21,609 nt of DNA from a virus. Below the pieces are notes generated by a model. That model was not told where the DNA came from, made no database searches, and worked only from the letters and a program-made list of their open reading frames with translations. The DNA is taken from IMG/VR virus record IMGVR_UViG_3300047551_002819, positions 1 to 21,609 of that record; one strand, given 5' to 3'. Below, piece by piece: positions 11,880 through 21,609 of the stretch. The position numbers and the translations under genes were made by a program. The stretch's first letter is position 1, and every line of letters starts with the position of its first letter.

Positions 11880-12187
11880 GGTTCGCTTCCCGCTCTGGCG
11901 AGGTCAGCCCTCGGGAGGGCCTCGAGATGGCCTACAAGCTGTTCGAGGACGGCCGCCCGCGGGAGGCGGCCATGATGTTTCTCGCCTACGCCGACCAGGA
12001 GAACGAAGTTGGCGTGGTCGGCGAGAGCGAGTACAACGCCCTGGCGACCCACCTGAAGGAGATGATGGCCTACGTGACGCTGCACCAGATGATCATCGAT
12101 CGGCAGGTGCAGCCGCTGCTCACCGATGAGCTCGAGCCGGCCTACAAGCCCTCGCCCTGGTATGACGAGGACTACAACCCGAGCTGA
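11876..12187 (+). CDS. Hypothetical helical protein (103 aa)
   Basis: The start at ATG 11876 overlaps the thyX stop (ATGA); the frame is open further upstream but those codons are a shadow of thyX. The 103 residues form a TPR-like helical pair ('EGLEMAYKLFEDGRPREAAM', 'EYNALATHLKEMMAYVTLHQ') followed by an acidic, Pro/Tyr-rich tail ('KPSPWYDEDYNP'). No catalytic or metal motif is visible. Coupling to thyX suggests co-expression only; the function is unknown. It is the last rightward gene before a 558-bp gap. Confidence 0.65.
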   Translation: MRFASRSGEVSPREGLEMAYKLFEDGRPREAAMMFLAYADQENEVGVVGESEYNALATHLKEMMAYVTLHQMIIDRQVQPLLTDELEPAYKPSPWYDEDYNPS

Positions 12188-12228
12188 TCGGCGCTGATCA
12201 AGCGCTCATCTGCCCGACCTGCGATAAT

Positions 12229-12534
12229 TCATTCTGAGTTCGTTTTGAGTCTCAACTCTCTCAGGATGCAAATCGCTGCAGGAGGAAGATGCACGACCCG
12301 ATCCTTGCCGGTCTTCTTGCCGGTCTTGTGACACTCTCTCGGAATCACCAGAACAACTGCCTTCTCGTTGAGCCATTCCCATCTGCCAGAGCAGATCTCA
12401 TTCAGGCGGCACCCAGCCAACGGCAACAGCTTCACCAGCTGAGCGAAGCGCCACTGCAGTGGCGTGGTGGGGAACGTGTCCAGTGCGGCTATGAGCCGCT
12501 TCAACTCTTCGTCTGAAGCAAGAATGGAGAAGTC
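12229..12534 (-). pseudogene. Truncated tyrosine recombinase (integrase) core fragment
   Basis: Read on the - strand, this stretch encodes 'LASDEELKRLIAAL', then 'KLLPLAGCRLNEICSGRWEW', then 'HKTGKKTGKDRVVHLPP'. This is the start of a tyrosine recombinase catalytic domain: the linker, the first catalytic Arg (in GCRLNEI) and the Lys hairpin. It lacks the DNA-binding N-terminus; an in-frame TAA lies just before it at 12535-12537. It also lacks the HxxR box and the Tyr nucleophile, since the frame stops at 12229. It cannot be an active integrase alone. It may be a relic of a temperate ancestor or a fragment captured from a host. There is no convincing start codon; TTG at 12504 is the only candidate. 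Confidence 0.7.
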
Positions 12535-13573: not shown

Positions 13574-13893
13574 GCTTTGAAGACCGAGCACTGGGCGGCG
13601 AACCTTCCACCAGTCTGGCTCGCCTCTGGCCAGCCGAAACCACACTGTGCGCGAACCGCCTCCCAGTGAATGCACTGCCAGCACAGCGGCTTCTGATCGG
13701 CCTTGTTGCAGAGCTGCCGTTTCATGTCGGCATAGACCCGCTCCGCCTTGAAGATCGCTTCCTCTACATCGGCGGTCTCAAGGCTGGTTCGGAGCTGCTT
13801 GTCTGGTGTTGACCCAAGCCTGATGCGGAGATGCCAGATGCTGTCCTGTTGGTTCAGGATCATGCGCCCGGCATGAAACCGCATCATCCCCAT
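13555..13893 (-). CDS. Integrase-arm-like domain joined to a Cys4 zinc module
   Basis: A 112-residue protein; ATG 13893 and ATG 13887 (the latter giving an exact ATGA overlap with the kinase gene) are both possible starts. Residues ~10-60 ('SIWHLRIRLGSTPDKQLRTS', 'TADVEEAIFKAERVYADM') resemble the three-stranded N-terminal arm-binding domain of tyrosine integrases. Residues 71-102 hold four Cys in the pattern C-x2-C-x9-C-x17-C with 'GGRFAAQC' at the end, a likely zinc site. It has no recombinase catalytic core. The same Cys module recurs in the HTH protein at 18669-19166. A DNA-binding regulator is a reasonable guess; it is not a nuclease by any visible motif. Confidence 0.6.
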   Translation of the reverse strand: MGMMRFHAGRMILNQQDSIWHLRIRLGSTPDKQLRTSLETADVEEAIFKAERVYADMKRQLCNKADQKPLCWQCIHWEAVRAQCGFGWPEASQTGGRFAAQCSVFKACPTRQ

Positions 13894-14450
13894 AGCGCTA
13901 CGTCGATCTTGCGACGGAATTCTTCAAGGCTGCCGTCATTATCGAGGACAACGTCAAATCCGTCCCAATTATCCAGAGCACCTTCAGAAACGTGCTCACC
14001 GTTGTGCGCAGCACTTGGCCGGCGGATCATCCACACCTGACCGCCGGCAGCCTTGACCGCTTCGGCCTCGTTCAGGAAGCGCACGTCGTCGGTGACCACC
14101 TGATCGTGCCCCTTGACCCGCGCCTGCCAGCATCGGATCCAGACATCGTCGGCGATCTGCTGGCGCCCCCACTCGGTGCCAAGGCGCTGCAGGATCTCGC
14201 GGACCGTGACGCCAACCTCGGGCACCAGCTTGTGCTTGTCGACCCACACCAGCCGAGCGGCCTGGTCTTCGCGGTAACCAAAGTCCCGCAGGAATGCCAT
14301 CGCCATCCGCTTGAGCGGCTCGGCAAAGGACACCGGGTGATAGCCCTGATGAGCCAGCACCGTTGCCGCAAAGGTCTTGCCTGACTGCGGCGCTGGGCTG
14401 TAGAGCCCGATCAGCTGGATGTTGTCCTCACGGTCGTAGTCGTTGTTCAT
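13884..14450 (-). CDS. Deoxynucleoside monophosphate kinase
   Basis: A 188-residue P-loop protein starting at ATG 14450. The nucleotide-binding loop is 'SPAPQSGKT' (Lys25, Thr26), with the usual first Gly replaced by Ser. 'SFAEPLKRMAMAFLRDFGY', 'ILQRLGTEWGRQQIADDVWI' and 'VVTDDVRFLNEAEAVKAAGG' are the substrate-binding and Walker B-like segments of T4 gp1-type dNMP kinases, which phosphorylate dTMP, dGMP and modified dCMP. 'DVVLDNDGSLEEF' is the usual C-terminal element. It would act after ThyX on the way to dTTP. It overlaps its upstream neighbour by ATGA and its downstream neighbour by 10 bp at most. Confidence 0.82.
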   Translation of the reverse strand: MNNDYDREDNIQLIGLYSPAPQSGKTFAATVLAHQGYHPVSFAEPLKRMAMAFLRDFGYREDQAARLVWVDKHKLVPEVGVTVREILQRLGTEWGRQQIADDVWIRCWQARVKGHDQVVTDDVRFLNEAEAVKAAGGQVWMIRRPSAAHNGEHVSEGALDNWDGFDVVLDNDGSLEEFRRKIDVALWG

Positions 14451-17285: not shown

Positions 17286-17509
17286 CACCACACCCCCTTC
17301 TGGCGCATCAGCCGCCGTGCCTGCTTGGCCAGCAGCTCCAGATCCTCGAGGTCAGCGCGGATCGGTCCGACATCCTCCTGTCGCAGCTCAAAGAACGCTC
17401 CGCCGGTTTCGTCGGCCATCCGGAGCTCGATCACACCCTCCGCATAGCAGGGGTTGTCGTTTTCGCGGTGAATAGCCACGGCCATGATCGTCGCAATCAC
17501 GTCACTCAT
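17285..17509 (-). CDS. Small hypothetical protein (74 aa)
   Basis: ATG 17509 gives 74 residues, with an 8-bp overlap into the AP2 gene upstream; the few codons before it belong to that gene. 'MSDVIATIMAVAIHRENDNP' is followed by 'GVIELRMADETGGAFFELRQ' (two strands) and a charged helix 'DLEDLELLAKQARRLMRQKG'. It looks like a compact alpha/beta protein without metal or catalytic residues that I can identify. Function unknown. Confidence 0.6.
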   Translation of the reverse strand: MSDVIATIMAVAIHRENDNPCYAEGVIELRMADETGGAFFELRQEDVGPIRADLEDLELLAKQARRLMRQKGVW

Positions 17510-17765
17510 CACTCGGCACCTCATTCAGCAGCGCGTACTCACCGATCACCGCCAGCGCTGCCTTGTTGTACGCAAGCGCAGCCTCGATCTCGGTTTCAAA
17601 CGCTCCGAGCATGTACTGCTTGCCCTTGTACCGGAATGCAGCGCGATACGGCTTCTTGGGATTTGTATTCTTCTGCACCCCGCGGTACTTGCTGAACTTC
17701 CCCTTCGGCAGCGGCCGGTTGGCCATCGACAGGTAGTAGTCCTTGTCGCTCATGAGGCGCTTCAC
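17502..17765 (-). CDS. AP2-domain protein without an HNH nuclease
   Basis: The GTG at 17765 overlaps the upstream stop (GTGA), giving 87 residues; ATG 17753 is an alternative four codons later. Residues ~28-80 are an AP2 DNA-binding domain: 'KFSKYRGVQKNTNPKKPYRA', then 'GKQYMLGAFETEIEAALAYN'. Unlike the protein at 7886-8386, there is no HNH part and no room for one. Stand-alone AP2 proteins may be site-specific DNA binders derived from homing endonucleases. Here it sits within an operon with two other putative regulators, so a transcription role is reasonable but unproved. Confidence 0.75.
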   Translation of the reverse strand: MKRLMSDKDYYLSMANRPLPKGKFSKYRGVQKNTNPKKPYRAAFRYKGKQYMLGAFETEIEAALAYNKAALAVIGEYALLNEVPSDE

Positions 17766-18151
17766 GACTGCACCTCCGGTGGCATCAGCATCTGACGGAT
17801 CCGGCTGGCGGTGAACGGCCCGCGGGCGATCAGCCCCCAGATCGTCTTCATCGCCACCACCGCCTCGTGGTCGGCCATGATCGAGCCGCATCCATCCAGC
17901 GCCTCGGCGACCACATCAAAAGTCTCCTTGTACAGCCGCGGATCAGGCTCCATCAGCGCATCGCGCCAGGCAGCCACCTCAGCCAGCGCCTGCAGACCGA
18001 AGTTCTTCAGCTTCATCAGGTCGTCGCTGCTGGCCAACATGATCTGCTCGGCCGTCAGATACCCACCGCGCAACAGTGAGTTAATGGTTCTGGTGCTCAT
18101 GTAGACCGTGGTCTCCGGTATCAGCCGGAAGTCGTCTTCAGTTGGGTGCAT
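17762..18151 (-). CDS. Protein with an RNA polymerase alpha-CTD-like domain
   Basis: A 129-residue protein starting at ATG 18151. Residues ~17-62 ('YMSTRTINSLLRGGYLTAEQ', then 'ASSDDLMKLKNFGLQALAEV') match the helix-hairpin-helix C-terminal domain of bacterial RNA polymerase alpha, where the bacterial pattern is 'LS.R..N.L...I.T...L....E.DL..I.NFG..SL.E'. That domain contacts UP-element DNA, activators and region 4 of sigma. The rest (63-129) is helical and not recognised. It could redirect host RNA polymerase or bind DNA on its own. The context (zinc/HTH and AP2 proteins nearby) fits an early regulatory role. It overlaps its neighbours by 14 bp and GTGA. Confidence 0.7.
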   Translation of the reverse strand: MHPTEDDFRLIPETTVYMSTRTINSLLRGGYLTAEQIMLASSDDLMKLKNFGLQALAEVAAWRDALMEPDPRLYKETFDVVAEALDGCGSIMADHEAVVAMKTIWGLIARGPFTASRIRQMLMPPEVQS

Positions 18152-18389
18152 TGATCGAGTTGAGGTGATCGATGAGTTCTTGACGGGTCGACCAGAGCGG
18201 CTTGCCGTCGATCTTGCGCTCCATCTCGGCGATGGCGCGGTGGATCCCTTTCAGGAACCAGAACCGGCTGATGGCTGCGACCTTTGGCGCCTGGCTCAGC
18301 AGCTGGTCCCAGATCTTGTCTGGGCAGCTGTCCCAGTCGACGTCATCGCGCACCACCATCCAGGGGGCCAGCGCGTCGTTCAACGTCAT
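18138..18389 (-). CDS. Small hypothetical protein (83 aa)
   Basis: I choose ATG 18389 (83 residues); the frame is open upstream but that region is coded by the preceding gene in another frame. The sequence 'MTLNDALAPWMVVRDDVDWD' leads into helical segments 'IWDQLLSQAPKVAAISRFWF' and 'AIAEMERKIDGKPLWSTRQE'. It overlaps the upstream gene by 47 bp and the alpha-CTD-like gene by 14 bp. No family recognised; function unknown. Confidence 0.62.
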   Translation of the reverse strand: MTLNDALAPWMVVRDDVDWDSCPDKIWDQLLSQAPKVAAISRFWFLKGIHRAIAEMERKIDGKPLWSTRQELIDHLNSINAPN

Positions 18390-18668: not shown

Positions 18669-19166
18669 TCAATCTTGGCTGCCGGCGCTGGGTGACGCAG
18701 CCGGCTTGTCGCAACTCGTTACATAGGCGTTGCATTCCCTGGCGAACGCCGGCCCGAGCTCCTCAAAATCTGGAAACTGCATCAGGCAGCCATCCTCGAG
18801 GTCGAAAAACGAGCAGCTGCTGCACAGCCGCCCAGCCTGCGATCGATCGATTTCAGCGGCCACCGTCGCGTGGATCAACCCTGCCCGCACCTGGCGCACC
18901 GCCTCCCGGCTCACACCAAAGCGCTCGGCCATGATCCTGTCCGATACCGTGCGTGGCGTCGCGAGAATCTCCAGCACGTCCTCGTCCGACAGCTTGCGGC
19001 GCTGCGCATAGACGCGGCCCTCCATCCAGCGGTGGCCGCAGTCCTTGCACAAGCGAACCTTGTACCTGGTGCCGTCATAATTCAGACCAGTGGAAACAAT
19101 CCTGTTGTTTTGATGGCCACAGACACCGCTGCCTACGGTGGACAAGTCCTCTTCCCGTTGATCCAT
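18669..19166 (-). CDS. Putative regulator: zinc ribbon, helix-turn-helix and Cys4 module
   Basis: I place the start at ATG 19166 (165 residues); the codons further upstream run into the + strand gene. Three parts are seen. Residues ~14-50 have Cys16, His18, Cys40 and Cys43 ('CGHQ...RLCKDCGHRW'), like an NrdR-type zinc ribbon. Residues ~58-95 contain a helix-turn-helix ('SDRIMAERFGVSREAVRQVR') of the kind that binds DNA. Residues 115-145 carry C-x2-C-x8-C-x17-C with 'GPAFAREC', the same module as in the protein at 13555-13893. A phage transcription regulator is likely. It sits head-to-head with the + strand gene at 19195, 28 bp apart, so a shared control region is possible. Confidence 0.7.
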   Translation of the reverse strand: MDQREEDLSTVGSGVCGHQNNRIVSTGLNYDGTRYKVRLCKDCGHRWMEGRVYAQRRKLSDEDVLEILATPRTVSDRIMAERFGVSREAVRQVRAGLIHATVAAEIDRSQAGRLCSSCSFFDLEDGCLMQFPDFEELGPAFARECNAYVTSCDKPAASPSAGSQD

Positions 19167-19194
19167 GGAATTCGGTCGATGGTTGCAGGCTGAA

Positions 19195-19368
19195 ATGACG
19201 GCTGAAGACAAGTGGCAAGTGGAAATCACTGCCCGCAAAGAGGATCCACGCACAGCGATGCTCTACCGGCTGTGCTGCCAGCAGCAGTTTCAGCTCCAGC
19301 AGGCGGTCAACGAGATCGCCCGGCTAGAGCTCCTGCTGATGGACTACCCCCGTCGATCCCAGAGCTGA
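19195..19368 (+). CDS. Small coiled-coil protein, lone + strand gene in the - strand arm
   Basis: A 57-residue frame from ATG 19195 ('MTAEDKWQVEITARKEDPRT', then 'LYRLCCQQQFQLQQAVNEIA' and 'RLELLLMDYPRR'), a single amphipathic helix with a Gln-rich heptad pattern. The frame fills the only large gap on the - strand of this arm (19167-19343), which supports it over a shadow. It points away from the regulator gene at 18669-19166 and its last 25 bp overlap the convergent gene at 19344-19667. The ribosome site is weak. A small antirepressor-like role would suit this location, but there is no direct evidence. Confidence 0.55.
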   Translation: MTAEDKWQVEITARKEDPRTAMLYRLCCQQQFQLQQAVNEIARLELLLMDYPRRSQS

Positions 19369-21071: not shown

Positions 21072-21101
21072 GAAATAAAAATGGCCCGAAAGACTCGGGC
21101 C
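21072..21101 (-). terminator. Rho-independent terminator after ssb
   Basis: On the - strand a perfect 7-bp stem (GGCCCGA at 21083-21089 pairs with TCGGGCC at 21095-21101), loop of five bases, is followed by an ATTTTTATTT run. It lies 15 bp after the ssb stop. It should end, or reduce, transcription leaving ssb before the following gene. Confidence 0.8.
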
Positions 21102-21115
21102 GATGTTGTCGTAGA

Positions 21116-21541
21116 TCAGAAGGGAATGTCGTCGTTGATGACGTCACCGGCGAAATTATCAGCGACGCTCTGAGCAGCGACCGTCACAACTGGTGCTGGA
21201 CGAGGAGCGGGCGTAGGAGCAGGTGCCTGCTCGGCTCGAGCCTGCCAGCTCTCCACGGAGGCGTTCTTGATCACGACGGCCTTTTTGAGCTCGCCGGTGT
21301 TCTTGTCGTTCCAGGTCTCCTCCGCCACCTGTCCGGTGACGCAAACGCTGGCGCCCTTCTTCAAGTAGTTGGCGACGTACTCGGCCTGTTTGCCCCAGAC
21401 CTCCACTTTGACCCAGAACGCAGGTGCGTCCTTCTTGGGCTGGCGAACGGCAAGCGAGAACTTCGCCACCATCTGGCCAGACTGCGTGGTCTGGAAGTCG
21501 GGATCTCGGCCCAGGTTGCCGGTAAGGGTTCCGTTGAACAT
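21116..21541 (-). CDS. ssb: Single-stranded DNA-binding protein
   Basis: A 141-residue protein from ATG 21541. Residues 1-100 are the OB fold: 'MFNGTLTGNLGRDPDFQTTQ', 'MVAKFSLAVRQPKKD', 'FWVKVEVWGKQAEYVANYLK' and 'GASVCVTGQVAEETWND'. A flexible Pro/Ala-rich linker (about 106-125) leads to the acidic tip 'DDIPF', the standard C-terminal tail that recruits replication and repair proteins. It protects single-stranded DNA during phage replication. A terminator follows it. The start overlaps or nearly touches the end of a further - strand gene. This is the most certain replication gene in the window. Confidence 0.95.
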   Translation of the reverse strand: MFNGTLTGNLGRDPDFQTTQSGQMVAKFSLAVRQPKKDAPAFWVKVEVWGKQAEYVANYLKKGASVCVTGQVAEETWNDKNTGELKKAVVIKNASVESWQARAEQAPAPTPAPRPAPVVTVAAQSVADNFAGDVINDDIPF

Positions 21542-21543
21542 GA

Positions 21544-21609
21544 TCAATCGTTACGGGGTTGGCAGATGACGAAGCAGCCGGCGCCATCGCGACGCTTCCG
21601 CACCGAGTA
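21544..21609 (-). CDS. C-terminal end of a gene running off the window (partial)
   Basis: A - strand frame is open from the window edge to a TGA at 21544-21546, 2 bp before the ssb ATG. The visible 21 residues include 'RKRRDGAGCFVICQPRND'. Too little is seen to name it. Its tight spacing to ssb fits the packed arrangement of this arm. Confidence 0.45.
   Translation of the reverse strand, partial: YSVRKRRDGAGCFVICQPRND

Follow-up and report, generated by a model that had tools for sequence, protein, structure and literature searches.

The locus considered here raises the question of whether a phage may carry the C-terminal domain of the RNA polymerase alpha subunit (alpha-CTD) as a free protein and, if so, what such a protein would do. 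The window, which is a record of 21.6 kb in a collection of viral sequences, contains a 129-aa ORF with an ATG start, the product of which is termed P0001. The ORF lies at 17762-18151 on the minus strand, exactly the coordinates originally predicted, and encodes an N-terminal alpha-CTD-like domain followed by a C-terminal helical region. Among the pairs computed, dN/dS is about 0.03-0.21 for the alpha-CTD-like domain and 0.08-0.40 for the C-terminal half of the protein. Both halves are thus under purifying selection, as expected of a real gene, and together with the synteny described below these values rule out a chance ORF.

The original prediction placed an alpha-CTD pattern at residues ~17-62, and this placement is borne out by both sequence and fold. 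Residues 18-60 (17972-18100, minus strand), which comprise two helix-hairpin-helix (HhH) elements, match the Pfam family RNA_pol_A_CTD (PF03118) with 31.2 bits (E = 1.9e-7), well above chance and above the gathering cut-off of 23.8 bits. The generic HhH family HHH_5, the kind of domain that had been named as the competitor for this assignment, reaches only 14.1 bits, below its own cut-off of 27. PF03118 is matched by all 12 homologues that were scanned together, seven of which also match HHH_5 weakly, and by three further members from a later scan. When the family profile was compared with the PDB, alpha-CTDs were the top matches (E = 2e-6), and the HhH domain of Hef appeared only at 0.75.

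An AlphaFold2 model built from 17 natural variants contains both HhH elements, with pLDDT values of about 88-96 over the domain, and its ten top fold matches in the PDB are all RNA polymerase alpha subunits or alpha-CTDs. The E-values of these matches are modest owing to the shortness of the domain (best 1.3e-2), with probabilities of 0.99-1.00, and superposition on the alpha-CTDs of the best-fitting PDB entries gives 0.8-1.5 Å over about 50 residues. HhH domains of RadA/RAD51 are present among the lower fold matches. As score and fold both favour the alpha-CTD, a generic HhH or repair domain is rejected.

The rest of the alpha subunit was predicted to be missing, and indeed a search of the window and of eight relatives, of which five are longer than 55 kb, found no N-terminal assembly domain, RNA_pol_L, at E <= 0.01. 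P0001 is therefore not an RNA polymerase alpha subunit (RpoA). It belongs to one sequence family with the bacterial alpha-CTDs of PF03118 (for example PDB 3gfk, 1z3e, 9dvt) and has their HhH fold; of the residues that contact DNA, it has R265, N268, G296 and, in most members, E302 in common with them. Unlike in these alpha-CTDs, the domain is free of the alpha N-terminal domain, lacks K298 and the acidic sigma-contact patch, and is extended by conserved C-terminal helices.

These residues were mapped on E. coli numbering across 17 aligned members. Alpha sequences of E. coli and B. subtilis served as references, the numbering of R265 being confirmed by counting back from the end of the protein, and those of cyanobacteria were taken from PDB alignments. 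The 265 determinant for DNA, which consists of R265, N268, C269, G296, K298, S299 and E302, is retained to differing degrees. The equivalents of N268 and G296 are invariant, that of R265 is Arg in 16 members and Lys in one, and that of E302 is Glu in 14 and Gln in three. R265 and N268 are the residues that make minor-groove and backbone contacts with DNA in the alpha-CTD (PMC11434276). The C269 position is variable, K298 is replaced by Gln in most members, and the S299 position holds Ser or Ala in most, with Ala in about half. Given the Gln at 298 and the frequent Ala at 299, the affinity for DNA may be reduced or re-targeted. Competition for UP elements, one of the roles originally proposed, is accordingly possible, with R265, N268, G296 and mostly E302 kept on the one hand and K298 lost on the other.

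The remaining surfaces have fared differently. In nearly all members T-T-x-Y stands in place of the acidic 261 determinant (D258, D259 and E261), the contact for sigma region 4, and the proposed competition for that region is thereby disfavoured. What is lost here is a functional surface, which has no bearing on membership in the alpha-CTD fold. The 287 determinant is the activator-contact patch of the alpha-CTD, and its conservation in the family is unlike that in E. coli. This bears on the further proposal of competition for host activators, although other surfaces may serve activators. Over the whole domain, only about a third of the residues, counted by eye, match those of the cyanobacterial alpha-CTD.

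The C-terminal half, which the original prediction could describe only as of unknown kind, proves to be conserved and helical and to have no detectable relatives. In the model, the region of residues about 71-129 (17765-17941, minus strand) forms three helices at 71-87, 93-110 and 115-122, the last of low confidence (pLDDT 48-53). Its conserved core ends in PFTAxRIRQML, of which FTAxRIRQML shows little or no variation within the first of two phage lineages and is largely kept in the second. Beyond the alpha-CTD, the family has no match in Pfam, NCBIfam or PHROGs, and none to an HTH family; PHROGs hold no family for P0001, the best match being at E = 0.07, and none of the listed PDB fold matches covers the C-terminal region. 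This region was found only in the present set of phages.

Free-standing alpha-CTD phage proteins are already known, and P0001 adds one to their number. Judged by its sequence, it belongs to this class, being a short phage product in which a single alpha-CTD is the only domain of alpha. Annotated examples of 111-149 aa come from uncultured Caudovirales and from Mycobacterium phage Mithril; BFVD holds entries of 131-135 aa for the former as well as the Mithril protein. ORF40 of Erythrobacter phage vB_EliS-L02 is likewise annotated as a free-standing alpha-CTD protein (PMC9127768). Others are identified by Pfam match, namely gp68 of Zenteno07 and gp51 of Marley1013 (Mycobacterium phages), gp24 of Microbacterium phage Morrill and a 210-aa protein of Bacillus phage Goe8. 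Like P0001, these proteins are small and carry one alpha-CTD without the rest of alpha. The domain is N-terminal in Marley1013 gp51, as it is in P0001, but gp51 lacks N268; in the Zenteno07 and Goe8 proteins the domain is instead C-terminal. Certain other alpha-CTD matches in phage records hardly differ from the RpoA of bacteria and appear to represent contamination from the host. No functional study of a free phage alpha-CTD protein was found in the literature searched, the coverage of which excludes most subscription journals.

Two further comparisons can be drawn. T4 Alt and ModA are also phage proteins tied to the DNA-binding surface of the alpha-CTD, but they act on that of the host, as ADP-ribosyltransferases that modify R265, and are not alpha-CTD copies. 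By this modification T4 neutralises the surface (PMC2988021). The Chryseobacterium plasmid protein WP_124785686.1 is, like P0001, a mobile-element protein with an alpha-CTD, C-terminal in that case, but it carries a sigma-70 region 4 domain too.

Two related phage lineages, represented by about 28 IMG/VR contigs, carry the P0001 gene at the same position. Twenty of these loci came from the first searches and eight more from a domain-only scan, seven of the latter belonging to the second lineage. A scan with a neighbouring gene, m17, gave 17 loci, and every one of their contigs had been found before through its alpha-CTD gene. Among named phages, no homologue spans the full length of P0001. Relatives of about 55 kb carry terminase, portal, tape measure, RecE-/RecT-like and integrase genes, and ThyX in most, where functions were read from sequence and some lack a Pfam test. 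A diverged alpha-CTD-like ORF of 166 aa in another uncultured phage (L071:32-529) scores 28 bits with the family profile and has no Pfam match.

Within this arrangement, the P0001 gene lies downstream of the SSB gene and shares its orientation. It stands between small ORFs and the gene for a deoxynucleotide monophosphate kinase (dNMP kinase), which follows downstream, oriented likewise. The SSB gene (21116-21547, minus strand; PF00436, 81.7 bits) belongs to the early/recombination region, and the kinase gene (13884-14450, minus strand) is assigned by PF21448 (52.1 bits) and by synteny in relatives. In one relative, G007, RecT- and RecE-like genes, as read from sequence, lie upstream of that early/recombination region. 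In relatives, the P0001 gene follows recE/recT/ssb and points the same way, which makes the early operon that was predicted for it plausible. Promoter-like sites were not above chance, and no set of phage promoters or UP elements emerged; terminator-like sites overall were likewise not above chance. One strong terminator-like hairpin with a T-rich tail (21083-21101, minus strand) directly follows the SSB gene, before the alpha-CTD side.

Immediately upstream of P0001 lies m15, an 83-aa ORF (18138-18389, minus strand) of which the stop codon overlaps the P0001 start by 14 nt. An overlap of 14-20 nt is present in nearly all first-lineage relatives, which suggests translational coupling. However, no m15 was detected among the second-lineage phages, and its helical model has no PDB match. 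A shared functional unit of the two is weakened on both counts, and m15 is not an obligate partner of P0001. The invariance of P0001 residues 1-5 is largely explained by the overlap with the m15 stop codon rather than by a functional motif; residues 8-14 (FRLIPET) are conserved beyond the overlap. Nearby, and outside the system assigned here, a 194-aa ORF (18669-19253, minus strand) shows weak, sub-threshold zinc-ribbon and HTH-like matches and a stretch that weakly resembles sigma-70 region 4, at 12.8 bits and likewise under the cut-off. On the other side, a small ORF at 17505-17747 (minus strand) matches the AP2 domain weakly, with 21.2 bits where the cut-off is 33.3, and adjoins the alpha-CTD gene in only some relatives.

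Elsewhere in the window, 12181-12516 (minus strand) holds a tyrosine integrase remnant with an in-frame stop, in which about residues 184-295 of a 379-aa relative enzyme align; the integrase is full-length or nearly so in 10 of 11 relatives checked. The remnant suggests that this variant has lost integration. The rate of change along the genome is uneven, in that TerL is 91-93% identical to that of G007 in G005-G010, G017, G018 and the window, whereas the alpha-CTD proteins of the same relatives are only 64-79% identical to that of the window. One in-frame TAG occurs within the TerL alignment of a relative (G008:C1:50079-51995, L129).

Matches to isolate phages point in mixed directions. ThyX is nearest to that of Synechococcus phages (60.6%), the top matches of the dCTP deaminase are again Synechococcus phages (about 40%), and the near-equal top matches of TerL (44-45%) include Synechococcus phage S-LBS1 as well as Roseobacter, Serratia and Citrobacter phages. 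These similarities hint, weakly, at a picocyanobacterial host. Profile scans of genome contigs with the alpha-CTD family and TerL gave no relative that would represent a prophage or host genome.

Taken together, P0001 is tentatively read as a small phage regulator that binds DNA and arose from a captured alpha-CTD of RNA polymerase, a reading that we prefer while rating it somewhat short of probable. Like the host alpha-CTD at UP elements, its domain would dock in the minor groove of A/T-rich DNA, the helical C-terminal region would multimerise the protein or recruit another, and transcription from host or phage promoters would be shifted early in infection. The retention of the DNA face together with the loss of the sigma face fits such a regulator better than a sigma decoy, and the gene is core to both lineages, within the recombination-side operon. 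A decoy or surrogate alpha-CTD as originally proposed, which would deprive host promoters of activation by occupying UP elements or host activators (e.g. OmpR-type regulators), is nonetheless an alternative, as sequence and fold both mark the domain as a true relative of the alpha-CTD. The alpha-CTD is a hub for activators (PMC11434276), and T4 neutralises the same surface through ADP-ribosylation of R265 (PMC2988021). The decoy is unlikely, however, with the 261 patch gone, the 287 patch not kept as in E. coli, only about a third of the residues matching the cyanobacterial domain, and a conserved C-terminal region that it leaves without explanation.

HhH domains serve in repair and recombination too, and the gene neighbours of P0001 are recombination genes, which counts against a regulator. 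An alpha-CTD-derived HhH accessory of phage recombination or replication, no longer acting in transcription, would suit its setting beside SSB, dNMP kinase and, in relatives, RecE/RecT-like genes, as well as the RadA/RAD51 domains seen among the lower fold matches. Yet the alpha-CTD outscores repair HhH domains in every comparison of sequence and fold, and the conserved residues include R265 and N268, markers of the alpha-CTD DNA surface, such that this accessory role also appears improbable. Still more doubtful is an adaptor for transcription activation, in which the alpha-CTD-like domain would serve as a platform for contacts, while a DNA-binding unit formed by the C-terminal helices would recognise phage promoters. 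The near-invariance of FTAxRIRQML in the first lineage, and its substantial retention in the second, is what a binding helix would show, but the region has neither an HTH family match nor a covering fold match and its last helix is of low confidence. The preferred regulator may be taken further, although with little confidence, to a lineage-wide transcription factor: a captured host alpha-CTD that has kept its DNA-reading face, shed its sigma contact and gained a new helical domain, and by which the phage would re-address A/T-rich elements of promoters independently of the alpha-CTD that belongs to the polymerase.

Phages whose hosts are unrelated carry free alpha-CTD proteins time and again, and no report of their function emerged from the literature searched. 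The present family offers about 28 natural copies in which the DNA face is kept and the sigma face is lost. With this pattern, what was a vague annotation becomes a claim that can be tested, about the way in which phages, possibly those of picocyanobacteria, redirect the promoters of their hosts.
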